Shown piece after piece: positions 8,561 through 25,746 of a stretch of 64,000 nucleotides of DNA (positions are counted from its first letter, which is position 1; each line of letters opens with the position of its first letter). The stretch is from Litoreibacter halocynthiae (GTDB lineage: Bacteria > Pseudomonadota > Alphaproteobacteria > Rhodobacterales > Rhodobacteraceae). Position numbers and translations under genes: made by a program. The notes under the pieces were generated by a model. The model made no database searches, was not told the origin of the DNA, and saw only the letters and a list, made by a program, of their open reading frames with translations. The DNA lies in NCBI RefSeq assembly GCF_004365635.1, contig NZ_SOBH01000001.1, positions 186,001 through 250,000 of the forward strand, given 5' to 3'.

Positions 8561-8565
8561 GTGAT

Positions 8566-10650
8566 TCAGGCCCCCTTCTTGGTGGTGATGTCGATGCAGC
8601 CGTCCGGCTGGCGGATGGCTTTACGGGACGACGGGACGATGATCGTCGTCTCATCCTCGGTGATGGCGGCCGGGCCTGTGACCTCTGCGCCCTCGATCAT
8701 GTCCTCGCGTAACACGACGGAGGCTTGCGTGAAATTCGCAGTGGCCGGATCGAATAGCGAGCGCGAGCCGTGGATCGGGGCGGCACCAATGGGATTGGCG
8801 GGCGCGATCTTCACTACTTTTTCGGGCGGTGTCGTGGCATTGACGGACCAGACGGTGATTTCGATATCCATGCCTGTAACTGCGCGGCCGAACAGCTTGG
8901 TGTAATCCTCGACAAACCGCGCCTCGAAGGTTGCGGCGTCGGGGTTCATCGCCTGCGCTTCGGTCAGGGCGATCGGGATTTCCCAGCCTTGGCCCGTGTA
9001 GCGCATGTAGACCTTGAACTCTGACAGAATGTCGCTCTCCGCATCGCAGTTGCGCACAAAGCCCGTTGCCTCGGCCTTCAAGTCACTCAACAACGCCTTG
9101 ATCTTGTCCGCGTCGAAGTCCGACAGCTTCATATAGACCGAGCGGTTGGCCTCGAAGCTGAACGGCGCGCGCAGGAAACCGATGGCAGAGCCGACACCCG
9201 CGCCGGGCGGCACCAGCAGGCGCTCTACCCCCAGTTTTTCGCACAAGCGTCCCGCGTGCAGCGGTGCCGCGCCGCCGAATGCGATCATGGTGTATTCGCT
9301 CAGGTCCTCGCCGTTTTCCACTGCATGCACCCGCGCTGCGTTCGCCATGTTTTCGTCTACAACTTCGGCCAAGCCGAAGGCCGAGGTCGCGGCGTCCATG
9401 TCCAGCACGTCACCCAGAACGGCGCTTAACGCGGCTTCAGACGCGGAGGTTTCCAGCTTGATCGAGCCGCCCGCGAAGTTGTCAGGGTCCAGCTTGCCCA
9501 GCACAAGGTCGGCGTCTGTCACCGCAGGCTTGTCGCCGCCGCGCCCGTAGCAGGCGGGGCCGGGCTCGGAGCCCGCGCTTTCCGGCCCGACGCGGATCTG
9601 GCGCATCGCATCAACATGGGCCAGCGAGCCGCCACCAGCGCCGATTTCTACCATGTCGATCACCGGGATCGAAATCGGCATTCCCGACCCCTTTTTGAAG
9701 CGATACGTTCGCGCCACTTCGAAAACCCGCGACGTTTTTGGCGTCTGATCCTTGATCAGACAAATCTTGGCCGTGGTCCCGCCCATATCGAAGGACAGCA
9801 CCTTGTCCAACCCATACCGCGCGGCGATATTGGCGGCGAACACTGCGCCACCTGCGGGGCCGGATTCGACCAGACGCACGGGGAACTCCGCTGCATTCTC
9901 CAGCGATATAATCCCCCCGCCCGAGTGCATGAGGAAGATGTTGCATCCCACGCCCTCGTCGCGCAGGCGGCCTTCCAGACGGCCCAGATAGGACTTCATC
10001 AGCGGCTTGATATAGGCGTTCGCCACGACAGTATTGAACCGTTCATATTCGCGCATCTGCGGGCTGACTTCGGACGACAGCGATATCATCACGTCCGGCA
10101 AGCGCTTCACCAGCACGTCGCGCACCAGTTTTTCGTGCGTGTCGTTGAGGTAAGAGTGGATCAACCCGATGGCGACACTGTCATATCCGGCCTCCGCGAT
10201 GGCCTCGACTACTGGCGCAATATCCGCCTCGGTCAGCGGCATAAGTTCCGCCCCCGTCGCATCAATCCGCCCCGGCACGGTGTAGCGGCATTGGCGGGGC
10301 AGCAAGGGTTCGGGGATGTTGAGGTTCAGGTCATACTGCTCGAACCGCGATTCCGTGCGCATTTCGATCACGTCGCGGAAACCTTCGGTGGTGATCAGCG
10401 CGGTCTTCGCGCCGCGCCGCTCGATCAGGGCGTTGGTGGCGAGGGTCGTGCCATGGATAATTTGCCCGATATCGGCGGGCGTCACATCGGCCTTGACGCA
10501 GACCTGCTGCATCCCGTCGATGATGGCATTCTCGGGCGCTATGTAGGTGGTCAGCACCTTGGTCGAGAACGACGCGCCGTCCACCTCCAGCACCACGTCG
10601 GTAAACGTGCCGCCAATGTCTACACCAAGTCGAATCGAGGAAGTTTTCAT
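8566..10650 (-). CDS. hyuA: Hydantoinase A / 5-oxoprolinase alpha-type ATPase subunit
   Basis: 694 residues of the HyuA family. The N-terminus LGVDIGGTFTDVVLEVDG is the ASKHA-type phosphate-binding loop that makes the subunit ATP-dependent. GTTLATNALIERRGAKTALIT, SEVSPQMREYERFNT and the DMGGTTAKICLI segment follow in the usual order. The ATG at 10650 is chosen; the short GTG extension upstream adds only MIC. Pairs with HyuB immediately downstream. A LysR gene lies upstream in the same orientation, and an AT-rich, LysR-box-like repeat sits in between, so LysR control is plausible. Confidence 0.9.
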   Translation of the reverse strand: MKTSSIRLGVDIGGTFTDVVLEVDGASFSTKVLTTYIAPENAIIDGMQQVCVKADVTPADIGQIIHGTTLATNALIERRGAKTALITTEGFRDVIEMRTESRFEQYDLNLNIPEPLLPRQCRYTVPGRIDATGAELMPLTEADIAPVVEAIAEAGYDSVAIGLIHSYLNDTHEKLVRDVLVKRLPDVMISLSSEVSPQMREYERFNTVVANAYIKPLMKSYLGRLEGRLRDEGVGCNIFLMHSGGGIISLENAAEFPVRLVESGPAGGAVFAANIAARYGLDKVLSFDMGGTTAKICLIKDQTPKTSRVFEVARTYRFKKGSGMPISIPVIDMVEIGAGGGSLAHVDAMRQIRVGPESAGSEPGPACYGRGGDKPAVTDADLVLGKLDPDNFAGGSIKLETSASEAALSAVLGDVLDMDAATSAFGLAEVVDENMANAARVHAVENGEDLSEYTMIAFGGAAPLHAGRLCEKLGVERLLVPPGAGVGSAIGFLRAPFSFEANRSVYMKLSDFDADKIKALLSDLKAEATGFVRNCDAESDILSEFKVYMRYTGQGWEIPIALTEAQAMNPDAATFEARFVEDYTKLFGRAVTGMDIEITVWSVNATTPPEKVVKIAPANPIGAAPIHGSRSLFDPATANFTQASVVLREDMIEGAEVTGPAAITEDETTIIVPSSRKAIRQPDGCIDITTKKGA

Positions 10651-10697
10651 ACAGATCACCCAAGGAGTTTTGAGAAGAGTAGGTGAAGTTGGAGGAT

Positions 10698-10710
10698 ATA
10701 ATCCAATTAT
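10698..10710. promoter_or_regulatory. Candidate LysR-type operator upstream of hyuA
   Basis: ATAAT-CCA-ATTAT is a 5-bp inverted repeat with 3-base spacer inside a T-N11-A frame (T10697 to A10709), the general form of LysR-type boxes. It lies 48 bases upstream of the hyuA start in an AT-rich stretch (10690-10740) that stands out from the GC-rich surroundings. The assignment rests on shape and on the neighbouring LysR gene. Confidence 0.35.
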
Positions 10711-10742
10711 TTATATATATTCTAGTGATAGATTTTAGTTAT

Positions 10743-11660
10743 CTAGCGTTTGCTGCTTTCCCTGAAATCTGTTGCGGTTTCTTCGGCAATGCGGGCGGCA
10801 TGCAATACGAACCTCGCCACTTTCTCGGCATGGTAGCGCGCGCAGAAGCGTAAAGGGTTGGGGGTCCAATCCACGCAGAGATGTACCAGCTTCCCGACGG
10901 CTATATCCTTGGCCACCATTGCTTCCGGCAACAAAGACACCCCCATTCCGTCTAGCGTCATTTGCAAACAGGAGGACATCGAACTTGAAGGCACGAAGCC
11001 TGCCTTTGGCAAGGCATTGGCGTCTGCATGGTCCGACAATTCGGTGAAGGCCTGCGTGTGGCGGGCATGCGTTAGCAAGGTGTGAGGGATCAAATCCTTC
11101 ACGGTCAGTTTAGTCGGAAGCTCCGCTGCAATTTCGGAGGAGGCCACCCATGCATAAGGGTACTCTCCAAGCTCGATCTGGCCTGTCACAGTGGTTGCGA
11201 AGGGGGCGGTTTGCAGTGTCAGGTCCAGCTCGTTGAGAGCCAACGCGCGGTCCAGAGTGCGGGACAAATCTACGGTTAACTCGAAGGAAACCTCGGGATA
11301 GGCCGCTTTTAGACGCCGCAGATATTCATGCAGCCAAGTCGCCGCGACCAGCTCGGTGACGCCAAGCCGTAAACGGTTCTGCACAAGGTCAGGGCGGGCT
11401 GCAACTTCGATCAGCTCTTCTGCCTGACGCAGGACCGCACGGGCGGCTTGCAGGATTTCGTGGCCCTTATCTGTAAGTCTCACCGACCCGGCATCGCGCT
11501 GCATCAGAATTGTTCCGAGCGTGGATTCAAGGCTCGCAATACGCGACGAGATGTTGGGCTGGGTGGTATTCAGATGTCGGGCAGCTTTGCGAAAGCTGCC
11601 CAAATCGGCCACCCAGACAAGGGCTTCGAGTTGTTTAAGGGTGAATGTGTTGCCGAGCAT
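10743..11660 (-). CDS. LysR-family transcriptional regulator
   Basis: 305 residues. The N-terminal winged helix-turn-helix is obvious (LKQLEALVWVADLGSFRKAA, then LNTTQPNISSRIASLE, about residues 7-50), followed by a long linker helix and a periplasmic-binding-protein-like effector domain (about 90-300). Lies directly upstream of hyuA-hyuB-BKACE on the same strand, so it probably controls them in response to a pathway intermediate. On its other side the znuA stop is only 10 bases away, but zinc uptake has its own Zur regulator. The effector is unknown. Confidence 0.9.
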   Translation of the reverse strand: MLGNTFTLKQLEALVWVADLGSFRKAARHLNTTQPNISSRIASLESTLGTILMQRDAGSVRLTDKGHEILQAARAVLRQAEELIEVAARPDLVQNRLRLGVTELVAATWLHEYLRRLKAAYPEVSFELTVDLSRTLDRALALNELDLTLQTAPFATTVTGQIELGEYPYAWVASSEIAAELPTKLTVKDLIPHTLLTHARHTQAFTELSDHADANALPKAGFVPSSSMSSCLQMTLDGMGVSLLPEAMVAKDIAVGKLVHLCVDWTPNPLRFCARYHAEKVARFVLHAARIAEETATDFRESSKR

Positions 11661-11669
11661 AGTCTGCGT

Positions 11670-12590
11670 TTAGCATTCTGCGATTGCCTTCGCCATGCCG
11701 AGCAACATTGCGGTGTAAAGCGACTGTCCGATTGTAAGCGTTGACCCCAGCGGGTCCAAAACAGCGACGCGGGCATCTGTACCTTCTAGCACAGTCGCCA
11801 CCAGCCCTTCCGAAAACTGCGGTTCAGAGAACGCGCAGGATACACCCTTTTCGCGCACCAATTCTTGGATGTGTTCAACCCGAGCCGGACCGGGCGCAGT
11901 TGCATCTCCAAGCGAAATCGCTGCGCTGGCTTCGACATCAAAACGCGCTTCGAAGTAATGAAAAGCGTCGTGGAAGACGATGAATGTTTTCCCTTTGGCC
12001 GGAGCCAGAATGCGCTCGATTTCGACCGTTGACGCGTGAAGGTCGGCCTCGGCGCGTTGCGCATTCGCTGCATATTTATCTGCGTTCTCAGGATCGAGGA
12101 CGGAAAGTTCAGACGCGATGATTGAAAGCCAAACCGCCGCGTTATCCGGGTCTAACCATGCGTGCGGGTCAACATCGGAATGAGCGTCATGATCGTCATG
12201 GCCATCATGATCGCCGTGGTCATGCCCATCGGCCTCGAAGGCGGCATCGGTGCGAAATTCCAGAGTTTCGGTTTCGGGCAGGTGCAAAAGTTCAATGTCT
12301 TTGGCATTCGGTGCAATACGGTCCAGAAGCGGTTCGAGCCATGGCGTCAAGCCGCCGCCGACCCAGAACACGGCTTGCGCTTGCTCCAATGCACCAGCTT
12401 GAGATGGCCTTAGGGAGAAACTGTGCGGAGAGGCGTTGGCCGTGACAAGCAATTCCGGCGTGCCCAAATCCCCCATAACCTGCGCGACGAGGGAATGGAT
12501 GGGGGCAATGTCAGTGACGACGCGAGGGGTCTCGGCAAGAGCAACTTGCGGGAGCGAAAGAAGAAGGGAAGCAAGAGCGGGGCGCAGCAT
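11670..12590 (-). CDS. znuA: Zinc ABC transporter substrate-binding protein ZnuA
   Basis: Periplasmic zinc-binding lipocalin-like cluster A-I solute-binding protein, 306 residues, with a signal peptide of about 19 residues (LLLSLPQVALA then ETPR). Metal ligands recognisable from the family are H56 (ASPHSF), H143 (DPHAWLDP) and H207 (VFHDAFHYFE). Between them, residues 123-137 form the histidine/aspartate-rich loop HDHGDHDGHDDHDAH that collects zinc and marks the protein as ZnuA rather than a manganese binder. Divergent from zur-znuC-znuB. The two Zur-like boxes lie in the shared promoter region. Confidence 0.95.
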   Translation of the reverse strand: MLRPALASLLLSLPQVALAETPRVVTDIAPIHSLVAQVMGDLGTPELLVTANASPHSFSLRPSQAGALEQAQAVFWVGGGLTPWLEPLLDRIAPNAKDIELLHLPETETLEFRTDAAFEADGHDHGDHDGHDDHDAHSDVDPHAWLDPDNAAVWLSIIASELSVLDPENADKYAANAQRAEADLHASTVEIERILAPAKGKTFIVFHDAFHYFEARFDVEASAAISLGDATAPGPARVEHIQELVREKGVSCAFSEPQFSEGLVATVLEGTDARVAVLDPLGSTLTIGQSLYTAMLLGMAKAIAEC

Positions 12591-12601
12591 AGGTCACCTA
12601 T

Positions 12602-12619
12602 GTGATTGTATAACATATC
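12602..12619. promoter_or_regulatory. Zur-box-like site 1 (znuA side)
   Basis: The half-site TAACATATC at 12611-12619 with a degenerate left arm (GTGATTGTA) forms an imperfect 18-base palindrome of the type GATATGTTA-TAACATATC reported for Zur in Alphaproteobacteria. It lies 12 bases upstream of the znuA start. Its centre is 32 bases, close to three helical turns, from the second site. Confidence 0.55.
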
Positions 12620-12633
12620 GCGCTTTGATAAAC

Positions 12634-12651
12634 GTTACTTTATAACACATC
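12634..12651. promoter_or_regulatory. Zur-box-like site 2 (zur side)
   Basis: GTTACTTTA-TAACACATC matches the same 18-base palindrome in about 14 of 18 positions. It ends 23 bases before the zur start. Two sites on the same helical face fit co-repression of both divergent units when zinc is plentiful. Confidence 0.5.
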
Positions 12652-12674
12652 AACCCCATGTTTCAGGAGTCCCC

Positions 12675-13154
12675 ATGGAATCGCTCGGTTTCAAGCATCA
12701 TGATCATTCCAGTTGCATTTCAGGCGGTGTTGCAGCGGTTGCGCAGACCTGCGCCGATGAGGGGCTGCAATTCACCCCTGTCCGCAAGCGTGTGTTGGAA
12801 ATTCTGCTGGAAAGGCACCGCGCAATCGGGGCCTATGAAATTCTGGACGTTTTGCGCGAAGAAGGCATGGGGTCTCAGCCACCCGTTGCCTACCGCGCGC
12901 TGGATTTCCTGGTGAAATACGGGTTTGCCCACAAGATCGAGCGCTTGAACGCTTTCATCGCGTGCTCCCATCCGGGTGACGCCCATGCTGCCGCTTTCTT
13001 GATTTGCCGCAGCTGCGATGCGGTCGCCGAGACCGCGACGGCACCGGCAGGAGGACGACTTGGGAAGGCCGCAGAAGAAACTGGGTTCACCATAGAACGC
13101 ACGGTTTTGGAGGCAGAAGGCGTGTGCCCGAATTGTCAGGGCAATTCCGAATGA
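12675..13154 (+). CDS. zur: Zur, zinc-responsive Fur-family repressor
   Basis: 159 residues with the Fur fold. The winged helix is at about 33-90 (TPVRKRVLEILLERHRAIGAYEIL and PPVAYRALDFLVKYG), followed by a dimerisation domain. Two CxxC pairs, C111-x2-C114 and C151-x2-C154, form the structural zinc site. The His-rich N-terminus (FKHHDHSSC) is Zur-like. The ATG at 12675 follows CAGGAG; an upstream in-frame extension would run through the operator and is rejected. The last codons overlap the znuC start (ATGA). Placed between its operators and the transporter genes, it is autoregulated by inference. Confidence 0.93.
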   Translation: MESLGFKHHDHSSCISGGVAAVAQTCADEGLQFTPVRKRVLEILLERHRAIGAYEILDVLREEGMGSQPPVAYRALDFLVKYGFAHKIERLNAFIACSHPGDAHAAAFLICRSCDAVAETATAPAGGRLGKAAEETGFTIERTVLEAEGVCPNCQGNSE

Positions 13155-13915
13155 ACGCTCTGGTAGAGTTCCAAGACGTGAACCTGAGCTATGGGGCTCA
13201 AAAGGTGCTCGATGACGTCAATCTGAGCATCGCACCCGGCGAGATTGTCACCATTGTTGGGCCAAACGGCTCTGGCAAGTCCTCGCTGCTGCGTGCGTTG
13301 ATTGGGGCGTTGAAGCCCGCGTCGGGGCAAATCAATCGCGCTTCAGGATTGCGCATCGGCTACGTGCCGCAAAAGCTGCATATCGACCCGACTCTCCCCA
13401 TGACCGTGAGGCGGTTCCTGAGCTTGCCTCTAAAAATAATCGATGCGGAAGCTGCGCAGGCATTGCAGCGAGCCGGTGTCTATGACCTTGGTCCGCGACA
13501 GATGTCGCTCCTGTCCGGCGGACAGTTTCAACGGGTGCTGCTTGCACGCGCCTTGCTTCACAAGCCGCAATTGTTGCTGTTGGACGAAGCCACTCAAGGT
13601 TTAGACCAACCCGGCTCCGCCGCGTTTTACCGCCATATCGAGAAGGTGCGGGACGAGCTGAACTGCGCCGTCCTGATGATCAGCCATGAGCTGCACGTTG
13701 TGATGAGCGCCTCCGACCGCGTGATCTGCCTGAACGGTCATGTCTGTTGCGAAGGCAAGCCCGATGTCGTCGCCTCTGCCCCCGAATACCGTGCGTTGTT
13801 CGGGACCGGCACAGGCGGGGCGTTGGCATTGTATCGCCACGATCATGATCACGCCCATGGCGACGGGTGCGACCACGACCATACCCACGATCCTGTTAAC
13901 GAGGCCGCCGACTGA
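13151..13915 (+). CDS. znuC: Zinc ABC transporter ATP-binding protein ZnuC
   Basis: 254 residues. Walker A is GPNGSGKSS (37-45), the signature is LSGGQFQRV, Walker B is LLLLDEATQGLD and the switch histidine is in ISHELHVV. The C-terminus carries a histidine/aspartate-rich tail (RHDHDHAHGDGCDHDHTHD), a feature known for ZnuC ATPases and likely to sense or bind zinc. The start overlaps the zur stop by 4 bases, and the stop overlaps the znuB start by 1 base (TGATG), so zur-znuC-znuB is one tightly coupled operon. Confidence 0.95.
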   Translation: MNALVEFQDVNLSYGAQKVLDDVNLSIAPGEIVTIVGPNGSGKSSLLRALIGALKPASGQINRASGLRIGYVPQKLHIDPTLPMTVRRFLSLPLKIIDAEAAQALQRAGVYDLGPRQMSLLSGGQFQRVLLARALLHKPQLLLLDEATQGLDQPGSAAFYRHIEKVRDELNCAVLMISHELHVVMSASDRVICLNGHVCCEGKPDVVASAPEYRALFGTGTGGALALYRHDHDHAHGDGCDHDHTHDPVNEAAD

Positions 13916-14703
13916 TGCTCGATAGTTTTCTTGTAAGGGCCGCGCTGGCGGGTCTTGGCGTGGCCTTGGCCGCAGCACCCTTGGGGTGCTTCGTCGTATG
14001 GCGGCGCATGGCCTATTTCGGTGACGCGACGGCCCACGCTTCGATCCTTGGCGTGGCGTTGGCGCTGAGTTTCAACATGTCCGTATTTGCGGGGGTTCTG
14101 GTCGTGGCGCTGATCATGGCGACGACAGTGTCAACTTTGTCAGGACGTGGCTATGCGATGGACACGTTGCTTGGTGTCTTGGCGCATTCGGCCATTGCTT
14201 TCGGATTGGTTGCCGTTTCTTTCCTTGAGGGTGTCCGCATCGACCTCATGGCCTATCTTTTCGGGGATATCCTTGCAGTTGGTCGTGTCGATCTGGCCGT
14301 GATCTGGGGGGGGGCGCTTCTGGTTCTGGCGCTGGTCGGATGGCGTTGGCAGCAACTTCTTACCGCCACGGTCAGCCCTGATCTGGCACATGCCAGCGGC
14401 ATTGATCCGAAACGGGAGCAGCTGATTTTGACGATTGCACTGGCTGTGGTGGTTGCTGTCGCAATCAAGGTCGTGGGCGTGCTACTGATTGCTGCGTTGT
14501 TGATCATCCCTGCCGCCGCCGCGAGACCGTTGTCCCAAACGCCGGAACGCATGGCCGCAATCGCCGCAGGCATTGGCGCGGCATCCGCAATTGGGGGGCT
14601 ACAACTGGCTTATGCTTTCGACACGCCTGCCGGCCCGACCATAGTGTGCGTCGCAGCGGCGGTGTTTGCACTGACGAGCCTGTTCAGCCTCATTCGGGAT
14701 TAG
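13915..14703 (+). CDS. znuB: Zinc ABC transporter permease ZnuB
   Basis: 262 residues, almost entirely hydrophobic with about 7-8 membrane helices, of the ABC-3 permease family (ZnuB/TroC). Family-typical segments include FVVWRRMAYFGDATAHASILG near the N-terminus and DPKREQLILTIALAVVVAVAIKVVGVLL in two parts in the middle. Last gene of the zur-znuC-znuB operon. Its 3' end overlaps the convergent SRPBCC gene by 14 bases. Confidence 0.94.
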   Translation: MLDSFLVRAALAGLGVALAAAPLGCFVVWRRMAYFGDATAHASILGVALALSFNMSVFAGVLVVALIMATTVSTLSGRGYAMDTLLGVLAHSAIAFGLVAVSFLEGVRIDLMAYLFGDILAVGRVDLAVIWGGALLVLALVGWRWQQLLTATVSPDLAHASGIDPKREQLILTIALAVVVAVAIKVVGVLLIAALLIIPAAAARPLSQTPERMAAIAAGIGAASAIGGLQLAYAFDTPAGPTIVCVAAAVFALTSLFSLIRD

Positions 14704-15229
14704 CTTCCATCCAGTCGCGAAAATCTTCAAGCTCCGCCTGCAACGGAGGCCGTTTCGAGCGGCTCATGAACCATCCCGAAATGCGCGACCATCCGCCAAG
14801 TCGCATCTCGGTTGTGACGCGCAACGTCGTGCCATCCCCTTCAGGGGTGAAGGTGGCTTCCAGAACACCCTCGGCGGGGAGTTTGCCGAAGATCGGGCTG
14901 TAATCGTCGCGCATGTCATAGGCCAAGGCAGGCATGACACCCTGCGTCATCTCATCGGGTGCCAAAGGAAGCACGCGGGTGATTTGCAGATGGCTCGCCA
15001 TGCGGTGCGGCGCATCGACTTCGATCACGGTTTCGATCATTTCGGTCTTCAGTTCAGGGTAGATAAACATCCAAACCGCCTGCGTGCCGGGCCCGTCATC
15101 CACGAGATTGGTGAATGTCACTTCGGTCCGGGTGGACGCATTGGCGGCAGTCAGTCGTGCATCCGTATAGCGGCGGTAGACCTGTTCTTGAGGCAGCGCG
15201 ATAAACACCTCGCCTGTCATGCGTGTCAC
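14690..15229 (-). CDS. SRPBCC (START-like) family protein, coupled to the reductive dehalogenase
   Basis: 179 residues with the length and strand pattern of the SRPBCC/polyketide-cyclase-like hydrophobic ligand-binding fold: an opening GEVFIALPQEQVYRRYTD, central beta strands (TRTEVTFTNLVDDGPGTQ, GVLEATFTPEGDGTTLRVTTE) and a long C-terminal helix (RPPLQAELEDFRDWMEANPE). The GTG start overlaps the stop of the reductive dehalogenase gene (GTGA), so the two are co-translated; an ATG three codons in is the alternative. It may bind the substrate or product of the dehalogenase, but it could also be an unrelated lipid-type binder. No catalytic residues are identified. Confidence 0.7.
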   Translation of the reverse strand: MTRMTGEVFIALPQEQVYRRYTDARLTAANASTRTEVTFTNLVDDGPGTQAVWMFIYPELKTEMIETVIEVDAPHRMASHLQITRVLPLAPDEMTQGVMPALAYDMRDDYSPIFGKLPAEGVLEATFTPEGDGTTLRVTTEMRLGGWSRISGWFMSRSKRPPLQAELEDFRDWMEANPE

Positions 15230-18200
15230 AGGTCAATCTCCAACAAACCATCCTTCTGAGCCGCGCGGGATTGGCACAAGATCAAGGATGTCGTGCGATC
15301 CGAGTTGGAAAGCACAAAGTCACGGTGCTCGACCTCTCCGGAAATCAAACCGCATTTGCACACGCCGCATAGCCCGTCAGAGCATTTGACATCCACATGC
15401 ACCCCCTCTCGCAGAAGGGCGTCGGTCGCGGCCTCGTCTTTGCGGACAGCGATGTCGCGTCCGGATTTGGCCAATCGCAAAACGAAATCGTGGTTCACGT
15501 AATCCGGCTGCTCGGGAACCGAGAAAAATTCCAGATGCCGCGCCTCCTCCGGGAAGCCGTTCGCCTCTGCCGTTTCCATCACCGAGGCCATGTAAACTTC
15601 CGGCCCACAGGTGTAGACATGCGCGCCGTCGCGGTGTTTCAGTGTCGCGGCAAGGTCGCAGCGCGATCCTTCATCGGAGAAGTGGTAGTGGACATTCTTC
15701 GCCCACGGCATCTTCGATAAATGCTCAAGAAATCCTGCGCCTGCCCGCGTTGAGCAGGAGTAGTGCAACGCGAACTCGGCGCCGACGGCGTGTAGCCTGT
15801 GGGCCATGGCGATCATCGGGGTCACCCCGATGCCGCCACCCATCAGGTAGGTGAACGACGCATCTTCATGTAGCGGGAAGTGGTTGATCGGCTTGGAAAT
15901 ATGCACCCGCCGGCCTTCCTCGAATATCCGGTGCAACAAGCGCGAACCGCCCCGCCCGTGATCCTCGCGCAGTACCGCGATCTGGTAGCGGGAGCGGTCG
16001 GCGGGGTCGCCGGACAGGGAGTATTGGCGCAGGAATTCGGGGGCGACGACAACGTCGATATGTGCGCCTGCCTCCACGGGAGGCATGTCAGAGCCGTCGG
16101 GCATGGCGAACTCGTATTTCGTCACTGTGTCGGTCATATGCTCGACCTTTGAGATCACCGCGCCCATGACGGGGCTGTCTTGCTGGTCGGCGGTGTAGAT
16201 ATGCTCGGGCGCTAACCCCTTGGCGCGACGGGCTTTATGCTCGGAGGCGGGGATCATTGCCTTGTAAGCCGCGATCCCGGCCTCGCGGTCCATCGGGTAG
16301 GGGTAGGCATAGGGCGGCGGGGCCAAAGGGGCGGGGTAGACGGCCAGTGTTTGGTCCTCGTAACGCAGGTCCAAACCCTTTTGCAGTCCGCGTGCGTTCA
16401 CCGGATGGGCGGAGGGGCGGTAGGCCCCGTCGTCGACCATTTCAAGATCCCACCACCACTTTTTGACGGGGTTTATTTCGCCTTGTCCTGCCAAATCATC
16501 CAGCTTTGCCAAGGCCTTGGCGGCTTTTGGTACGGTCATGGCCAGCTTGCGGAAGGGCGCTTCCGAGAACAGCCCCTCAAGGTTCCACGGGCAGGTTTTC
16601 ATGCAGCGCCCGCACATCGCGCCGTTCTTTTGGGCGACGCGGTAGGTCGTGCATTTCTGGCTGTCGGACTTCCATATCTCGTAGCCGTTGAACATCAGTT
16701 TCGGGCCTGCGGTGATCGCACCAGAGGGGCATTCGCGGGCGCATTTATTGCAGGCTTCGCAGAAGGTTTGAAGGCCAAAATCTATTGGTTTATCGTGGGT
16801 TAGCGGCATGTTGGTGGTGACCACGCCGGACTTAAGGCGGGGGCCTAGGAAGGGGTTCAGGATGACCTCGCCAATGCGGGAGACCTCGCCCAAGCCGGAC
16901 AAAAGCAACAGGGGCGGGTGCAGCACCTCGTCATCCATCACCGAATGGACGCGGGCGGTGTAGCCGAGGCGGCGGAGGTGTTCGGCCAGCACACCGCCCA
17001 GCAGCGAGAACCGCAGGTAGGCCCGCATGGATTGGGCGCAGGCAATCCAGTCGTCGCCGGAAGCGCCTTCCATGGTCTCGTGGCCCTGGTCGATAATCAT
17101 GGAAATCGCGTTGGAATGGTAGGGTGTGATCGGCTGACCTGCTGCGTCGTGGCTGTAATAAACCCAGTCGGGACAGGCGCTTAGGCCAACGGCATCTACC
17201 CCCAGCCAGTAGAGCGCAGCCTTGATGTTGGCGGCGTTGCGGTCGGGGTCTTGCGTGGACTCGTGGGCCTCGGCGGCCTCGCCGTCTTGCAGAAGAACGA
17301 AGGCGCCAAGGGAGGGGCGGAAGGCGAAAGCCGCCGCCGACTTGCGGACATAGTTGCCGTTTTTGGTGGCCTCCTGAACCGTTTTGCCCATGTCACCGAA
17401 CAGGCCCCGCGCGAACAGATTGGCGCGTTTCGGGACGCGGGCGACGTTGGGCTTGTCGATATAGGTGGTCGGGTCTTCAACCCGTTTCAGGGTCTCGAAC
17501 GGGTGCAGGCCGTCGCGGAATTTGCGTGTCTGAAAAGCGTCGGCTTTGCGTCTGCTTTTCGTATGGCCGGAAAGACCGACTGCCCATGACAGGCCGGGCT
17601 TGGCATTTGGTGCCAAGGGCCGGTCCGCAGACATCGCCAACGTCGTGGTGACCACGGCCAATCCGTAGCGGTTGCCCAGAAACGGATTTGCGCCGTCCGC
17701 ATGGTTCAGGCCCGACGCCACGGCCAGCTTGCCCAGATGCACGTCGCTCGCGGCCATGGAATGCGCCCGCGCATCGAAGCCCAACGTACGGATGTAGGAA
17801 GCGAGGGTCACGGCCGTCTCCATCCCGCGCAGGCAGGTGCGGTGGTCTTGGGCATCGATGATCCAGTCGCACCCGACCTCCTCCGCGTCGGGGTCGCGGG
17901 GCATGTCGTAGAGGAACACCAACGCGTGGGTATGGTGTTCGCAAGCCTGCGGCGGGGCGCGCATGCTCTCGCGCAGGCCCGCCATGATGACGTCGATGCC
18001 AGCGGCCAAGGTTTTGGGTTGCAAGGTGCGCAGCTTGTCGGCCAATCGGTCCACATCGGGGTTGACCAGTGGGGTGTCCAACCAAGCCTCGCGCGGTATC
18101 TCGCAGGTGCCGACCATGGAGGCGTCGCAATAGTAGCCGAACGCCTTGAGGTGGTTGGCCCGCTCCGTCAGGTCGTCCGGTATCTCGGCCAGTTCCTTTT

Positions 18201-18408
18201 TGACCAGCCCCTCGCGGGTGGCGTCGAGCATGGCCTGATACTCTTGCATCGCGTTGACGATGCTCAAAGGGTCTTCAGGCCGCCGAAAGCTGACATGCGC
18301 CATCTCGGGCACATGATCCAAAGCGGCACTATCTACCCGCTCCAGCTTTTCCAAGGGATAGGGTCCCAGATGGACGGGGCGATTGCGGTAGGAGAAGAGT
18401 TTTGTCAT
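15226..18408 (-). CDS. rdhA: Self-sufficient catabolic reductive dehalogenase fused to FMN/[2Fe-2S] reductase
   Basis: 1060 residues. Residues 1 to about 690 match cobalamin-dependent reductive dehalogenases of the catabolic NpRdhA/BhbA type. There are two 4Fe-4S motifs, C550-x2-C553-x2-C556-x3-C560-P and C586...C599-x2-C602-x3-C606-P. The first half is duplicated: NPFLG followed by a VVTT strand occurs at 241 and again at 518, which fits the degenerate plus working corrinoid-fold pair of this family. Residues about 740-970 are a phthalate-dioxygenase-reductase-like module (R794-QYS flavin motif, GGGIGVTP at 857-864, CGPEVYM at 934). Residues 980-1060 carry a plant-type 2Fe-2S (C1009, C1014, C1017, C1045). 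There is no Tat signal or membrane anchor, so it is cytoplasmic and non-respiratory, drawing electrons from NAD(P)H. The substrate, probably a halogenated aromatic, is unknown. Confidence 0.88.
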   Translation of the reverse strand: MTKLFSYRNRPVHLGPYPLEKLERVDSAALDHVPEMAHVSFRRPEDPLSIVNAMQEYQAMLDATREGLVKKELAEIPDDLTERANHLKAFGYYCDASMVGTCEIPREAWLDTPLVNPDVDRLADKLRTLQPKTLAAGIDVIMAGLRESMRAPPQACEHHTHALVFLYDMPRDPDAEEVGCDWIIDAQDHRTCLRGMETAVTLASYIRTLGFDARAHSMAASDVHLGKLAVASGLNHADGANPFLGNRYGLAVVTTTLAMSADRPLAPNAKPGLSWAVGLSGHTKSRRKADAFQTRKFRDGLHPFETLKRVEDPTTYIDKPNVARVPKRANLFARGLFGDMGKTVQEATKNGNYVRKSAAAFAFRPSLGAFVLLQDGEAAEAHESTQDPDRNAANIKAALYWLGVDAVGLSACPDWVYYSHDAAGQPITPYHSNAISMIIDQGHETMEGASGDDWIACAQSMRAYLRFSLLGGVLAEHLRRLGYTARVHSVMDDEVLHPPLLLLSGLGEVSRIGEVILNPFLGPRLKSGVVTTNMPLTHDKPIDFGLQTFCEACNKCARECPSGAITAGPKLMFNGYEIWKSDSQKCTTYRVAQKNGAMCGRCMKTCPWNLEGLFSEAPFRKLAMTVPKAAKALAKLDDLAGQGEINPVKKWWWDLEMVDDGAYRPSAHPVNARGLQKGLDLRYEDQTLAVYPAPLAPPPYAYPYPMDREAGIAAYKAMIPASEHKARRAKGLAPEHIYTADQQDSPVMGAVISKVEHMTDTVTKYEFAMPDGSDMPPVEAGAHIDVVVAPEFLRQYSLSGDPADRSRYQIAVLREDHGRGGSRLLHRIFEEGRRVHISKPINHFPLHEDASFTYLMGGGIGVTPMIAMAHRLHAVGAEFALHYSCSTRAGAGFLEHLSKMPWAKNVHYHFSDEGSRCDLAATLKHRDGAHVYTCGPEVYMASVMETAEANGFPEEARHLEFFSVPEQPDYVNHDFVLRLAKSGRDIAVRKDEAATDALLREGVHVDVKCSDGLCGVCKCGLISGEVEHRDFVLSNSDRTTSLILCQSRAAQKDGLLEIDL

Positions 18409-18522
18409 TCAGGGCTGCTTTAAAGTTCTGCCGGCACGCGGCGCATAGCGCTTGTTCTCGTTGCTCATACTCGTCAGTGTCACGGAGCATTCATAGCGGG
18501 TCAAGAGAGGAACGGGCTGGAT

Positions 18523-19221
18523 ATGACAGGGCAGATCAAAGGCTTGCTGTTCGACAAGGATGGCACGTTACTGGATTTCGACGCGACTTGGGGCCAATGG
18601 GCTGCCGGATTCTTTGACGATTTGGCGCAGGGCGATGTGGGACTGAGTGCGCGCATGGCGGATGCGGCCGGATTCGATGCGGCGACCAGAACCTTCCACC
18701 CCGACAGTCCGGTGATTGCCGATACCGCAGATATGGTGATTGATCTGTTGCTGCCTTTCGTTCCGCATTGGGAGCGGCAGGCCTTGCTGGAATATGGCAA
18801 TGAGAAAGCGGCGCAGGCCGAATTGGTGACCCCGTGTGCCTTGCCCGAGCTGTTTGACCGGTTCGATGCCATGGGGCTGCCGTTGGGGATTGCGACGAAC
18901 GACGCCGAAAGCTCTGCGCATGCACATATGCGCGCTTTGGGGGTCGAGACGCGGTTCGCGCGCATTTTGGGATTTGATTCCGGCTTTGGCGGAAAGCCCG
19001 CGCCGGAGATGCTTCTGGCGTTCTCGGACCATTGCGGATTTGCCCCGTCGGAGGTGGCGATGGTTGGCGACAGCACCCATGACCTTCACGCCGGCCGCAA
19101 CGCGGGAATGATTTGCGTGGGCGTGCTGACCGGCCCCGCAAGCCGCGCTGATCTGGAGCCGCATGCGGATGTCGTTTTGGACAGCATTGCCGATATTCCG
19201 CACTGGTTGGCCGCGCGGTAG
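18523..19221 (+). CDS. HAD-superfamily phosphatase (phosphoglycolate phosphatase-like)
   Basis: 232 residues with all HAD motifs. Nucleophile D11 and D13 lie in LLFDKDGTLLDF, motif II is the ATND segment (GIATNDAESS), and motif IV is VAMVGDSTHDLHAGRNAG. The helical cap (about 18-90) is of the subclass I type, as in phosphoglycolate phosphatase (Gph) and beta-phosphoglucomutase. Metabolite phosphatase, substrate uncertain. Divergent from the reductive dehalogenase and followed by the MttB-like gene 100 bases downstream on the same strand. The ATG at 18523 follows AGAGAGGAACGGG. Confidence 0.85.
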   Translation: MTGQIKGLLFDKDGTLLDFDATWGQWAAGFFDDLAQGDVGLSARMADAAGFDAATRTFHPDSPVIADTADMVIDLLLPFVPHWERQALLEYGNEKAAQAELVTPCALPELFDRFDAMGLPLGIATNDAESSAHAHMRALGVETRFARILGFDSGFGGKPAPEMLLAFSDHCGFAPSEVAMVGDSTHDLHAGRNAGMICVGVLTGPASRADLEPHADVVLDSIADIPHWLAAR

Positions 19222-19321
19222 CCTTGCGCCAAAAGCGACGTAACCGGTCGGTAACTGCCAAACCTGCCCTTGGGGCGCGGTGCAAGCTGGGGAGGCAGCT
19301 AACACCGGAGGTCACAGCGAC

Positions 19322-20878
19322 ATGGCAGATGAACCCAGCAAACGTAAGCGCGGCGGTGGCCGTGCGGGGAACGCCAGACGCACGACCTCCAAGCTGCCGG
19401 AGCAGATGCCGTGGCGCATTCCTGTTAATGTGGACAAACCTACCGAGCCATTGGACGAAGACGGCGTTCACGCCATCCACAAAGGTGCGATGCGCATACT
19501 GTCCGAGATCGGCATTGAATTCCTGAACCCTGACGCGTGCGAGATTCTGAAAGGCGCGGGCTGCAAGGTCGACGGCACCAACGTGCGGATGGACGAGGAT
19601 TTCGTGATGGAGATGCTGGGCCATGCGCCAGCGGAGTTCACCATCACCCCGCGCAACCCCAACCGTGCGATCCCGATGGGGGGCAAGCATATTCTGTTCG
19701 GCAACGTGTCCTCTCCGCCGAATATGTGGGATCTGAAACGCGGCAAGCGCACCGGCGATTTCGAGGGGTACAAGGAGTTCATCAAGCTCACCCAGTTCTT
19801 CAATTGCATCCATTTTGCGGGCGGCTATCCGGTAGAGCCCATCGACATTCACGCCCGCGAACGACATCTCGACTGCCTGTTTGAGAAGCTGACCCTGACG
19901 GACAAGGTGGTTCACGCCTATTCACTGGGCAAGGAGCGGGTGGAGGACGTGATGGAGATGGTGCGCATCGCGGGGGGCATGACGCGCGAGGAGTTCGACG
20001 CCAAGCCGCATATGTATACCAACATCAACTCGGTCTCGCCCTTGAAGCACGACTTCCCGATGCTTGAGGGCGCGATGATCCATGCGCGGCGCAACCAGCC
20101 GGTGATCGTCACGCCCTTTACCTTGGCGGGGGCCATGGCGCCCGTGACCATGTCGGGGGCGGTCACGCTTTCGCTGGCCGAAGGGTTGGCGGCGATTGTG
20201 CTGCTGCAAGTCATCAATCCGGGCGCCCCTTGTGCCATCGGGACGTTCACCTCCAACGTGGACATGAAAACCGGCGCACCTGCGTTCGGGACGCCGGAAT
20301 ATATGCGCGCGACGCAGATGACGGGGCAGATGGGGCGGTTTTATGGTTTGCCGATCCGCTCGTCCGGCGTGTGCGCCGCGAATGTGCCGGACGGGCAGGC
20401 GATGTGGGAGACGTCGAATTCCCTTTGGGCCGCCGTGCAATCTGGCACGAACGTGGTCTACCACGCGGCTGGCTGGCTGGAGGGCGGGCTGATCGCGAGC
20501 CCCGAGAAGTTCGTCATGGATTGCGACGTGATCCAGCAAATCCAGCGTTATATGGAGCCTGCCACCTATGCGACCACGCCGGAGGATATCGCCGTGGAGG
20601 CCATCCGCGAGGTTGGCCCCAACGGGCATTACTTCGGCTGCCAGCACACGCAGGACCGGTATGAGGATGCGTTCTATTCGCCGCTGATCTCCGACTGGTC
20701 GAACTACGAGGCGTGGGAGCTGAATGGCGGGGTCTGGACCGCCGAGCGGGCGCATGAGATGTATAAAGGCATCATCGAGGAGTTCGAGGCCCCGCCTTTG
20801 GATATCGCCATTCGCGACGAGTTGGCGGACTTCGTGGCGCGGCGGAAGGCCGAAGGCGGGGTGCCGACGGATTTCTAG
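19322..20878 (+). CDS. MttB-family (trimethylamine methyltransferase-like) corrinoid methyltransferase, non-pyrrolysine
   Basis: 518 residues of the MttB superfamily, TIM-barrel enzymes that move a methyl group from a quaternary amine or related compound to a corrinoid protein. The basic N-terminus (DEPSKRKRGGGRAGNARRT) is followed by typical blocks such as GAMRILSEIGIEFLNPDACE, HILFGNVSSPPNMWDLKRG and SGVCAANVPDGQAMWE. There is no in-frame amber codon, so this is a pyrrolysine-free member like glycine betaine methyltransferase MtgB. The ATG at 19322 follows GGAGG. No corrinoid protein gene or MtvA/MetH-type partner is adjacent. Roseobacters often carry several such paralogues; the substrate is unknown (betaine, proline betaine or carnitine are candidates). 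Confidence 0.85.
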   Translation: MADEPSKRKRGGGRAGNARRTTSKLPEQMPWRIPVNVDKPTEPLDEDGVHAIHKGAMRILSEIGIEFLNPDACEILKGAGCKVDGTNVRMDEDFVMEMLGHAPAEFTITPRNPNRAIPMGGKHILFGNVSSPPNMWDLKRGKRTGDFEGYKEFIKLTQFFNCIHFAGGYPVEPIDIHARERHLDCLFEKLTLTDKVVHAYSLGKERVEDVMEMVRIAGGMTREEFDAKPHMYTNINSVSPLKHDFPMLEGAMIHARRNQPVIVTPFTLAGAMAPVTMSGAVTLSLAEGLAAIVLLQVINPGAPCAIGTFTSNVDMKTGAPAFGTPEYMRATQMTGQMGRFYGLPIRSSGVCAANVPDGQAMWETSNSLWAAVQSGTNVVYHAAGWLEGGLIASPEKFVMDCDVIQQIQRYMEPATYATTPEDIAVEAIREVGPNGHYFGCQHTQDRYEDAFYSPLISDWSNYEAWELNGGVWTAERAHEMYKGIIEEFEAPPLDIAIRDELADFVARRKAEGGVPTDF

Positions 20879-20943
20879 AACTCGGCGTAAGATGTGCCAG
20901 TTGGCTGTGCTTGGATTTGCAGATCGGAAGCCGGTTAATTGCA

Positions 20944-20959
20944 ACTTATTGCTATAAGT
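20944..20959. repeat. Inverted repeat in the mttB-like / H-NOX intergenic region
   Basis: ACTTAT-TGCT-ATAAGT, a 6-bp perfect stem in the 195-base gap 20879-21073. It could be an operator of the H-NOX operon or part of a stop for the upstream gene. No T-run follows and no other structure is seen in this gap. Confidence 0.3.
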
Positions 20960-21073
20960 CGTCCATAAACGAATATCCAAGCCCGCTCACTTTAGCGAAT
21001 TCGTAAGGTTTCCTTGGCGTTTCCTTAATCGTTTTGCGTCAGACCTGTCTCTAGGTTTGGCAAAAGGCATCTT

Positions 21074-21676
21074 ATGTACGGCTTGGTTCATCGCGCGTTG
21101 CAGTGTTTTTCACAAGACACCTATGGGGACGTGGTGTGGAACAAGGTGGTCGCGGAAGCGGGCGTTCAGGTTCATGAATACGAGGCGATGCTGTTCTACC
21201 CGGATCATCATTTGGATGATGTTCTACTGGCGCTTTCCAATCATTTGGACAAAACACCTGCGCAGGTGTCCGAAGATGTCGGCGCATATCTGGTCACACA
21301 TCAGCGGATGGAGGCCGTGCGCAGATTGCTGCGCTTCGGAGGCGCAACCTTCGAGGAGTTTGTGCTGTCTCTTGATGAACTCCATGACCGTGTGAAGCTG
21401 GCTTTGCCGGAACTGGACCTTCCCGAACTCGAAGTGGAGGCGCATTCAGGCTCTTCGTTTAGCGTGTTGGTGAAATCTGAACATCACAGGTTCGGGGCAG
21501 TTCTGCTTGGCATACTGCGTGCGATGGCTGACGATTTTGGAACCCTTGTCATGCTGGACCTTGGAAGGTCCACACAGGGAAGCGACGATGTCGAGCGCGC
21601 AACGATCGAGTTGTTCGAGACCGATTTTGCGACTGGCCGCGGCTTTGGCTTGGTGGCGGAGGAGTCCGGCAGATGA
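21074..21676 (+). CDS. H-NOX (heme NO-binding, HNOB) sensor protein
   Basis: 200 residues starting MYGLVHRALQ, the standard opening of H-NOX proteins. The proximal heme ligand is H104 (LDELHDR). The fold length (about 180) is standard. The usual Y-x-S-x-R heme-propionate motif aligns with V133-K-S135-E-H137, so only the serine is kept; Tyr and Arg are replaced by Val and His. Bacterial H-NOX proteins bind NO at ferrous heme and control a partner encoded next to them. Here the partner is a HNOBA-GGDEF protein whose start overlaps this stop (ATGA). NO or redox control of cyclic-di-GMP is therefore likely. Whether heme is held normally is open given the changed motif. Confidence 0.88.
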   Translation: MYGLVHRALQCFSQDTYGDVVWNKVVAEAGVQVHEYEAMLFYPDHHLDDVLLALSNHLDKTPAQVSEDVGAYLVTHQRMEAVRRLLRFGGATFEEFVLSLDELHDRVKLALPELDLPELEVEAHSGSSFSVLVKSEHHRFGAVLLGILRAMADDFGTLVMLDLGRSTQGSDDVERATIELFETDFATGRGFGLVAEESGR

Positions 21677-22791
21677 AGGATGACGCGGCTCCGTCTGTTC
21701 CAACGACTGCTGTGCCGTTTGATCCAGGCGCGCTTGGGGCATTGATGCCGATGCATCTTCATGTGTCACCCACGGGCCATGTCCTGTCTGTCGGGCCAAC
21801 ACTGGCGAAATTGCGACCGAATGAAACCCTTGTAGGACAGCGTTTTCTGGAGCTATTCGAGGTTAAGCGCCCGATGCATATCCATCAGTTTGGCGATTTG
21901 CTAAACCATGGGAGCTGTTTGATCCGCACGAAATTCCGTACAGGACACCGGCTTGGCCTGAAGGGGCTGTTCGTCCCGCTTGCGGCCCAGCATCCTTTGC
22001 TTCCTGACAGGCGCCGATCGGGAGCAGCACGACCCGTTCTGCGCCCGAACCCGCAAACCGTGGCTGACCCGCAACCCGCGTTCAGCGGCGCGCTGATCAA
22101 CCTGTCGCTTGGGGTCAATGTGGTGGAGGCCGTACAACGCTACAGCTTGAGCAGTGCGGATTTTGCGCCGGCTGATCCCACCGTAGATATGTTGTATCTG
22201 ATAGAGGCCAAGTCTGTAGCACTGGAAGAATCCAAACGGTTGAATGCGCGTCTGGAAGGCGCGCGGGTCGAGGCCGAAACGCAGGCCTACACCGACACGC
22301 TGACGGGCCTTCAAAACCGTCGCAGCATGGATAGTTTGCTGCATCAGCTGGAACGGTCCGGAGAGCCGTTTGGCTTAATGCATCTGGATTTGGACTATTT
22401 CAAGCAGGTCAACGACACGTTCGGCCATGGCGCAGGGGACTATGTGCTGAAACGTGTCTCGGCGGTGTTGCAAGACGAAACCCGCGCCAGTGATCTGGTT
22501 GCGCGGGTCGGCGGGGACGAATTCGTGCTCGTCTTTCGAGGTTGCGTGAATCTGACAATACTCGAAGGCATCGCATTGCGCATCATCACACGTTTGGAAG
22601 AACCGATCGCCTATAACGGCCACCAGTGCCGAATCTCGGCGAGCATAGGGACGACATTGTCGAGCTTTTACCAAATTCCGGCAGCGGATCGTATGCTGCA
22701 TGACGCGGATCAGGCTTTGTATAAGTCAAAAGACAGAGGACGGGCACGTCATACGGTTTTCGATCCCGAACAACGTGACGCGCGCAGCTAG
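21673..22791 (+). CDS. HNOBA-domain diguanylate cyclase (GGDEF), H-NOX partner
   Basis: 372 residues. The N-terminal half (about 20-190) fits the heme-NO-binding-associated (HNOBA) sensor fold, with FLELFEVKRPMHIHQFGDL and FSGALINLSLGVNVVEAVQ. It is followed by a short coiled coil (about 190-215: IEAKSVALEESKRLNARLE). The C-terminal GGDEF domain is intact: TDTLTGLQNRRSMD, LDYFKQVNDTFGHGAGD and G280-G-D-E-F284. The inhibitory I-site R271-x-x-D274 sits five residues before GGDEF, so c-di-GMP feedback is expected. It makes c-di-GMP from two GTP and probably takes its signal from the overlapping H-NOX. There is no EAL domain, unlike some H-NOX partners that both make and break the messenger. Confidence 0.9.
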   Translation: MKDDAAPSVPTTAVPFDPGALGALMPMHLHVSPTGHVLSVGPTLAKLRPNETLVGQRFLELFEVKRPMHIHQFGDLLNHGSCLIRTKFRTGHRLGLKGLFVPLAAQHPLLPDRRRSGAARPVLRPNPQTVADPQPAFSGALINLSLGVNVVEAVQRYSLSSADFAPADPTVDMLYLIEAKSVALEESKRLNARLEGARVEAETQAYTDTLTGLQNRRSMDSLLHQLERSGEPFGLMHLDLDYFKQVNDTFGHGAGDYVLKRVSAVLQDETRASDLVARVGGDEFVLVFRGCVNLTILEGIALRIITRLEEPIAYNGHQCRISASIGTTLSSFYQIPAADRMLHDADQALYKSKDRGRARHTVFDPEQRDARS

Positions 22792-22845
22792 AGCCTGCAT
22801 GTGTGGGCTTAACCGACGGGCGGGTTCAATATTGGGGAAACGAAA

Positions 22846-22921
22846 GTGGTACTCCCTAGGGGAATCGAACCCCTCTTTTCAGGTTGAAAACCTGACGTCC
22901 TAACCGATAGACGAAGGGAGC
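22846..22921 (-). tRNA. tRNA-Glu (anticodon UUC)
   Basis: On the minus strand a 76-nt cloverleaf reads GCTCCCT at the 5' end, pairing with AGGGAGT before discriminator A and an encoded CCA. The anticodon arm is TCAGG-TTTTCAA-CCTGA, giving anticodon TTC. The T-arm is GAGGGG-TTCGATT-CCCCT. Located between the diguanylate cyclase and recJ. Confidence 0.97.
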
Positions 22922-23023
22922 ACCGGGATCGTGAGGGGCTATTTAGGCAAGGCGCGGCGCGCTGGCAAGAGGAAAATGCCCCGTTGGAGTGGAAAAATTT
23001 TAGCAGCCCGAAGCGTAAGGCTG

Positions 23024-24778: not shown

Positions 24779-25746
24779 TAGCTGATCGGGTTGCGATACG
24801 TCATGCGACGCACAGAGCCGGTTTTGGACCGCATAAGGATCGTCTCGGCGGTCAGGTAGCCGACTTCTCGGCGGATGCCCTTCAGGATCGACCCGTCGGT
24901 CACGCCGGTTGCGGCAAAAATCACGTCATTGGTGACCATCTCGTCGCGGTTGTAGATCTTGTCCAGATCGGTGATGCCCGCCTTGGCCGCGCGGCCACGT
25001 TCGTCATCATTGCGGAAAAGCAAGCGGCCATACATCTGCCCGCCCATGCATTTCAGCGCCGCCGCCGCCAGCACCCCTTCGGGCGCGCCGCCTTCGCCCA
25101 TATACATATCGATGCCGGTCGTCGCGGCCTCGGCGCAGTGCATCACGCCTGCGACGTCGCCGTCGGTGATCAGGCGGATTGCAGCACCGGTGGAGCGGAT
25201 ATCCGCGATGATCTGCTCGTGACGCGGGCGCTCCAGTACGCAGACGGTGATGTCGTCCGCCTTGCAGCCCTTGGCCTTGGCCAGTGCAGCCACACGCTCT
25301 TTCACCGACATGTCCAGCGTTACTGTGTCGGTTGGATATCCCGGCCCGATCGCCAGCTTGTCCATATAGACGTCCGGCGCGTGCAGCATGGAGCCGCGCG
25401 GCCCCATGGCAATCACGGTCAGCGCGTTGGGCATGTCCTTTGCGGTCAGCGTGGTGCCTTCCAGCGGGTCGAGCGCGATGTCCACGCCGGGGCCGTTGCC
25501 TGTGCCGACTTCTTCACCGATGAACAGCATCGGGGCCTCGTCACGCTCGCCCTCGCCGATGACCACGACGCCGGCGATATCCAGCAAGTTCAGCTGCTCG
25601 CGCATGGCGTTGACAGCGGCTTGGTCGGCGGCTTTTTCGTCACCACGCCCGATCAGCTTGGCGGAGGCCAATGCGGCGGCCTCGGAGACGCGGGCGAGCC
25701 CGAGGGACAACATGCGGTCCTGAAACTGGTCGGTGGAGACGGTCAT
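24778..25746 (-). CDS. glpX: Class II fructose-1,6-bisphosphatase GlpX
   Basis: Removes the 1-phosphate of fructose-1,6-bisphosphate in gluconeogenesis and, in some bacteria, sedoheptulose bisphosphate. 322 residues. Metal and substrate motifs are GEGERDEAPM and the DPLEGTT block (ALDPLEGTTLTAKDM), plus GEGGAPEGVLAA. The ATG at 25746 is preceded by AAGGAT at good spacing; an in-frame ATG nine codons upstream has no ribosome site. Sits between hom and recJ as in many Rhodobacterales. Confidence 0.95.
   Translation of the reverse strand: MTVSTDQFQDRMLSLGLARVSEAAALASAKLIGRGDEKAADQAAVNAMREQLNLLDIAGVVVIGEGERDEAPMLFIGEEVGTGNGPGVDIALDPLEGTTLTAKDMPNALTVIAMGPRGSMLHAPDVYMDKLAIGPGYPTDTVTLDMSVKERVAALAKAKGCKADDITVCVLERPRHEQIIADIRSTGAAIRLITDGDVAGVMHCAEAATTGIDMYMGEGGAPEGVLAAAALKCMGGQMYGRLLFRNDDERGRAAKAGITDLDKIYNRDEMVTNDVIFAATGVTDGSILKGIRREVGYLTAETILMRSKTGSVRRMTYRNPIS

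Follow-up and report, generated by a model that had tools for sequence, protein, structure and literature searches.

A predicted self-sufficient, cytoplasmic reductive dehalogenase of Litoreibacter halocynthiae, with relatives in two clades

A gene in the marine bacterium Litoreibacter halocynthiae, here called rdhA, very probably encodes a self-sufficient, cytoplasmic catabolic reductive dehalogenase expected to work in air, to judge from its sequence and its relatives. It lies in a stretch of 64,000 nucleotides (positions 186,001 to 250,000 of contig NZ_SOBH01000001.1, assembly GCF_004365635.1), referred to throughout as the window, whose numbering is used below. The open reading frame (ORF) listing and its translation place rdhA on the minus strand at 15226-18408, with an ATG start and a product of 1060 amino acids; frame 1 of the plus strand contains stops across the same span. 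The product is an intact-looking further example of an enzyme kind that is known and partly characterised, and the only parts of our analysis with some novelty are the split of its relatives into two clades and the argument about its substrate. The gene and the parts of its product are as follows.

15226..18408, minus strand: rdhA, a fusion of a reductive dehalogenase (RdhA) with a phthalate dioxygenase reductase (PDOR) (ORF, Pfam, NCBIfam, PDB sequence search, alignment)
17608..18192, minus strand: vestigial duplicate of the cobalamin-binding domain, residues 73-267 (hhalign, TIGR02486)
16777..17268, minus strand: catalytic cobalamin core, residues 381-544, with S460, M461, Y464, K526 and Cys457 (alignment, hhalign)
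16591..16761, minus strand: two 4Fe-4S motifs, residues 550-606, Arg590 among them (Pfam, alignment)
15241..16173, minus strand: PDOR-like flavin/NAD(P) module and C-terminal plant-type 2Fe-2S domain, residues 746-1056 (Pfam, PDB, Foldseek)

The NCBIfam reductive dehalogenase model TIGR02486 scores the protein at 192.5 bits against a cut-off of 160.35, and Pfam matches are Fer4_7/Fer4_16 at residues 549-608 and Fer2 at 980-1048, over cut-off. We aligned the protein in 114 rows, made up of NpRdhA of Nitratireductor pacificus and 113 homologue rows that include the query (present twice) and some near-duplicates; four of the 116 loci (L025, L067, L095 and L116) have no called RdhA ORF and stand outside the alignment, residue, clade and positional counts. 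All eight 4Fe-4S cysteines (550, 553, 556 and 560; 586, 599, 602 and 606) are present in 114/114 rows, and those of the plant-type 2Fe-2S cluster (1009, 1014, 1017 and 1045) in 110-113 of the 114, the remainder being gaps. In a PDB sequence search, the solved structures that best match the C-terminal part are 6kbh, a self-sufficient P450 (E 4.8e-54), and 2pia, phthalate dioxygenase reductase (E 3.9e-53, residues 743-1056). An earlier note, made from the letters alone, had described a corrinoid dehalogenase core with both 4Fe-4S motifs and, on the same chain, a PDOR-like module with a plant-type 2Fe-2S cluster; these results bear out both descriptions.

For the first 730 residues the best solved relative is NpRdhA (4ras, E 6.2e-167, 560.8 phmmer bits), with 45.4% identity across 665 aligned residues, and identity to BhbA is 50.9% over 1052 residues (50-51% full length). 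The NpRdhA residues F291, S422, M423, Y426, K488 and R552 correspond to F332, S460, M461, Y464, K526 and R590 of the query, all invariant in 113/113 homologue rows, the proposed proton donors Y464 and K526 among them. On the strength of these matches and shared catalytic residues, the placement in the NpRdhA/BhbA catabolic group made by the earlier note holds. Named relatives within the genus are closer still (L. ascidiaceicola 95%, L. meonggei 94%, L. arenae 92%). The note had also found no Tat (twin-arginine translocation) signal and no RdhB anchor, and we agree: by inspection, residues 1-60 contain a single RR pair (FRRPEDP, 42-43), which is followed by no Tat motif and no run of hydrophobic residues, and a simple hydropathy scan of 12501-21500 returned no ORF of 55-140 residues with at least two hydrophobic segments. 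A respiratory reductive dehalogenase needs both a Tat signal and an RdhB anchor, and was rejected because neither was found in these regions.

The RdhA part is internally duplicated. The block NPFLG...VVTT, which the note had seen at residues 241 and 518, recurs at N241 and N518 and is more than a chance repeat, since hhalign of residues 60-330 against 370-620 gave a probability of 99.6 (E 1.1e-24; 159 columns pairing 73-267 with 381-544), compared with 0.1 for each half against the reductase module. TIGR02486 likewise matches both halves, at 161.7 and 30 bits. Because the hhalign equivalents of Tyr464 and Lys526 in the first copy are Cys192 and Gly249, that copy lacks the proton-donor pair. 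A vestigial duplication of the cobalamin domain has already been described for catabolic enzymes (PMC10463259; here and below, published work is cited from the parts of its text that were available). We considered whether C94, C102, C156 and C192 of the vestigial domain might together form a metal site and dropped the idea, as C102 and C192 are lost independently; C94 and C156 mostly co-occur, and all four are present together with C412 and C457 in 70/114 rows.

An AlphaFold model built from 20 alignment rows was weak, with a mean predicted local distance difference test score (pLDDT) of 65.3 and a predicted template modelling score of 0.51. Foldseek searches with this model returned NpRdhA chains as the first 14 matches (best E 3e-44, target template modelling score 0.62-0.64, root-mean-square deviation of about 15 Å), followed by the self-sufficient P450 and then phthalate dioxygenase reductase, a ranking that, for a weak model, agrees with the sequence result.

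The earlier note had held that only a few members of this group have been studied; the group is better studied than that, and an enzyme with the same fusion and duplication has been characterised. This enzyme, JtRdhA of Jhaorihella thermophila (WP_104007082), was purified and studied as an NADPH-dependent, air-tolerant debrominase and deiodinase (PMC10463259). With NADPH it reduces 3,5-dibromo-4-hydroxybenzoate and 3-bromo-4-hydroxyphenylacetate (99% of the best rate) about equally fast; it also accepts 2,6-dibromophenol (7%), bromoxynil (14%) and tetrabromobisphenol A and reduces iodophenols well, and the chlorinated compounds reported there as tested were not reduced (PMC10463259). Our comparison with JtRdhA is by published description, in which it is, like the query, a soluble RdhA-PDOR fusion without a Tat signal, with a duplicated vestigial domain and the same catalytic residues; the available text does not mention the residue 419 position discussed below (PMC10463259). 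Its host, like that of the query, is a marine member of the order Rhodobacterales. BhbA, from plasmid pBHB of Comamonas sp. 7D-2, is likewise a full-length fusion with the same catalytic residues, and differs from the query in having Ser at position 457, Leu/Ile at 94/156, and protocatechuate 4,5-dioxygenase genes beside its own gene on pBHB. NpRdhA (4RAS, 6ZXU) shares the catalytic residues but has no fused reductase, carries Ala419 in place of Cys457, and has only 9 residues where the query has about 51 (105-156). Ros_A3X954, from the marine roseobacter Roseobacter sp. MED193, resembles the query as a debrominating reductive dehalogenase without a Tat signal; the places of its motifs (PF13486 at 174-269, those of the clusters at 283-294 and 337-345) indicate a smaller protein, and it is reported to be highly oxygen-sensitive, unlike the behaviour we expect of the query (PMC13101508).

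By homology we infer the cofactors, electron path, air tolerance and bromine/iodine preference of the query. NAD(P)H would reduce the flavin in the reductase module by hydride transfer, and electrons would pass singly through the 2Fe-2S cluster and then the two 4Fe-4S clusters to base-off cobalamin. The cobalt would engage the ortho halogen of a phenolic substrate, bromine or iodine rather than chlorine, as in JtRdhA, with the substrate hydroxyl held by Lys526, Arg590 and Ser460 and a proton donated by Tyr464/Lys526. The released phenol would then be degraded aerobically, here perhaps through homogentisate.

Such enzymes are not rare. With query residues 1-740 at E <= 1e-60, RdhA was found in 150/394 sampled genomes of the family, the family being the grouping used by the search tool, in which named records are labelled Roseobacteraceae or Paracoccaceae. 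These come from 149 of the 393 genera sampled, so that a B12 debrominase/deiodinase of a kind shown to be air-tolerant is no oddity in a main marine bacterial family, and such enzymes may account for a large share of the aerobic turnover of organobromine and organoiodine compounds in the sea. Using the whole protein as the query matched 225/394 genomes, an excess that we infer to be matches to reductase modules alone. Across a phylum-wide sample, 18 of 398 genomes matched at E <= 1e-30; their kinship labels put 15 in the same family and 3 in other families of the class. The distribution of these enzymes in roseobacters is already known in outline, putative bhbA homologues having been described as widespread in the Roseobacter clade (PMC13101508).

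A maximum-likelihood tree of 44 rows resolved two supported clades (100/95 and 100/99), with the Aminobacter sequence, BhbA and NpRdhA outside them; in this tree, from which L136 was left out, the joining of the long NpRdhA and BhbA branches may be spurious. A quick tree, with 121 rows, assigned 96 rows (82 distinct) to the query's clade, clade B, and 20 to clade A. Among the first 740 positions, 12 separate the two clades at 90% or more. The position of NpRdhA A419 (query Cys457) is Cys in 79 of the 82 distinct clade B rows (Ser in 2, Thr in 1), Val in 20/20 clade A rows and Ser in BhbA. At position 156, where the segment inserted compared with NpRdhA ends, 80/82 clade B rows have Cys and 20/20 clade A rows Ile/Val. 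In NpRdhA, A419 forms part of the wall of the second-halogen pocket, and the A419M substitution moved relative preference toward mono-halogenated substrates with absolute rates not raised (PMC7565698). The fixed difference between the two clades, at a residue known to steer specificity, offers a direct test of the marine substrate.

The genome (3.68 Mb, 99.99% complete) encodes the cobalamin-synthesis protein CobS and, outside the window at C1:400000-419000, a homogentisate cluster with hmgA, maiA and fumarylacetoacetase, all over cut-off, together with a VOC protein, a TRAP transporter, an FAD-dependent oxidoreductase (PRK08132 subfamily) and a MarR-type gene. It contains no PobA over cut-off (best 42 bits versus 538.7), and no HpaB or intradiol dioxygenase was found in it. 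Across the 394 family genomes, with HmgA and PobA called at E <= 1e-120, HmgA is present in 132 of 150 RdhA-positive and 134 of 244 RdhA-negative genomes (odds ratio 6.0, Fisher p 2.5e-12), and PobA in 118/150 and 145/244 (odds ratio 2.5, p 7e-5). In L150, of the sister clade, the neighbours of rdhA are a divergent hmgA and a MarR-like gene that matches HpaR and BilQ weakly, below their cut-offs; this locus and L147-L149, described below, are examples among the matches listed, not a rate. Hydroxylases that convert 4-hydroxyphenylacetate to homogentisate exist, and a homogentisate fate of the product would point to a halogenated substrate of the tyrosine, 4-hydroxyphenylpyruvate or 4-hydroxyphenylacetate type. 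A homogentisate-linked substrate of the tyrosine/4-hydroxyphenylacetate type is our leading guess, tentatively held. As for the halogenated aromatic target suggested in the earlier note, brominated phenolics remain the best substrate class, but a hydroxybenzoate route is unsupported in this genome, given its lack of PobA over cut-off, HpaB and intradiol dioxygenase. Separately, the genome matches hmgA a second time at C3:686489-686803 (L145, G000), over a short segment interrupted by stops (144.6 bits, model positions 299-404) that is probably a remnant. A report on L. arenae names homogentisate dioxygenase and haloacid-type dehalogenases and, in its available text, no reductive dehalogenase (PMC3910544).

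Several observations weigh against this assignment of enzyme and substrate. PF13486 (Dehalogenase) does not match the query protein at E <= 0.1; it is also unmatched in the genome, and in 14 control genomes likewise, so this is no proof of absence. The AlphaFold pLDDT falls below 50 at residues 493-524 and 545-721, covering much of the B12 site and the cluster region, so that the model is too weak for an active-site superposition and gives no usable picture of the B12 cavity. No aromatic-pathway gene occurs among the ORFs read near rdhA (8000-26000 only, the rest of the window being unread), and the genome searches behind the PobA, HpaB and intradiol negatives did not extend to 4-hydroxyphenylpyruvate dioxygenase or to the gentisate, meta-cleavage and CoA-ester routes. 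PobA and HmgA also tend to occur together across the 394 genomes (odds ratio 5.0), and the association test for RdhA with either ignores phylogeny and genome size. Finally, among the matches listed, sister-clade rdhA adjoins pobA, at 12 bases in L148, divergently in L147 and at 89 bases in L149, where pobA is known from a homology match alone (its ORF was not called, and the open frame overlaps rdhA). This adjacency points to hydroxybenzoate substrates in the sister clade.

It also favours a reading in which the same enzyme has brominated 4-hydroxybenzoate as its physiological substrate, as for BhbA, and releases 4-hydroxybenzoate, as do the protocatechuate 4,5-dioxygenase genes adjoining bhbA and the homologue in Nitratireductor OM-1, which has pobA and genes for extradiol dioxygenases no more than about 5 kb away. 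We consider this quite unlikely for the query, a judgement confined to the substrate: the route is doubtful here because the genome has the homogentisate cluster but no PobA over cut-off, HpaB or intradiol dioxygenase (meta-cleavage not being searched for), and among the 150 RdhA-positive genomes PobA is lacking in 24 that have HmgA and in 8 that lack HmgA too. Those eight genomes fit with a purely protective role, in which the cell strips toxic bromophenols of their halogens and excretes the product, as does the acceptance by JtRdhA of 2,6-dibromophenol, bromoxynil and tetrabromobisphenol A (PMC10463259). In 36 of the 112 loci where an RdhA ORF was called, the gene directly upstream of rdhA, in the same orientation, is of the MarR type, and regulators of this family often respond to phenolics, which also speaks for protection. 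Such a gene is missing directly upstream in the query and in 7 of the 8 Litoreibacter loci examined, however, and the association of RdhA with HmgA, though confounded, argues for catabolism; detoxification, which concerns the physiological role only, seems unlikely.

A different reaction altogether, that of epoxyqueuosine reductase or another cobalamin reductase on the RdhA fold, is highly improbable. Class III B12 enzymes do share the fold and clusters (PMC10463259), and the epoxyqueuosine reductase (QueG) model TIGR00276 matches the query weakly, at 23.6 bits. That score compares with a cut-off of 200, TIGR02486 is over its cut-off, the catalytic residues are as in NpRdhA, and QueG is encoded elsewhere in the genome by a gene of its own that scores 448 bits to TIGR00276, on which grounds we rejected QueG as the identity of the query. 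This QueG matches the query at 39.7 BLAST bits (25% over 129 residues), compared with 560.8 phmmer bits for NpRdhA, the two scores coming from different programs. Closer kinship to epoxyqueuosine reductase than to NpRdhA, which the earlier note had named as grounds for abandoning its assignment, was not what we found.

Returning to the homogentisate-linked substrate, clade B, which is common in marine roseobacters, might be a distinct specificity group in which Cys457, with the clade-typical Cys94 and Cys156 at the borders of the insertion, adapts the active site to mono-halogenated phenols derived from tyrosine (halotyrosine, or 4-hydroxyphenylacetate or -phenylpyruvate with bromine or iodine at position 3) that are salvaged into homogentisate. 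We regard this as fairly unlikely; if true, it would give common marine heterotrophs a route to recycle bromo- and iodotyrosine.

Three genes lie immediately around rdhA.

14690..15229, minus strand: SRPBCC-type gene (Polyketide_cyc2) with a GTG start and a 4-base overlap with the rdhA stop (Pfam)
18523..19221, plus strand: HAD-superfamily hydrolase gene, divergent from rdhA (Pfam)
19280..20878, plus strand: MttB-family methyltransferase gene (Pfam)

Deducing the substrate from these neighbours was tried and abandoned, as HAD, MttB and SRPBCC name none. The SRPBCC-type gene occurs, besides the query genome, at 3 of 115 other loci (L031, L032 and L083, all Litoreibacter), with two remote matches at 31%, and is absent beside rdhA in L033 and L034. 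Over 78 named loci, for which counts are minima because some flanks are short, the HAD group was found in rdhA flanks at 46/72 clade B loci, MttB at 40/72 and the MarR group, in which two members were checked by Pfam, at 24/72, each compared with 0/6 in clade A. Of the 36 loci with MarR directly upstream, 35 belong to the 90 clade B loci whose upstream sequence extends for 1 kb or more. In the plasmid records of relatives in Jannaschia, Aminobacter and Yoonia, the genes next to rdhA include other MarR genes and TRAP transporters. On one plasmid, that of Yoonia sp. SS1-5 (L116, 6001-9199), the rdhA homologue matches in two pieces with no annotated gene, and may be broken or reflect a sequencing error.

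Elsewhere in the window, 6851-11660 on the minus strand holds hydantoinase B- and A-type genes and, upstream of them in the same orientation, a gene for a LysR-type regulator. A zinc-uptake set follows at 11670-14703, with a ZnuA-type binding protein on the minus strand and a Fur-family regulator, an ATPase (identified by eye) and an ABC-3 permease on the plus strand. At 21074-22791, on the plus strand, a Haem-NO-binding gene overlaps by 4 bases a gene for a heme-NO-binding-associated (HNOBA) region and a GGDEF domain, likely a signalling pair that links nitric oxide to cyclic di-GMP.

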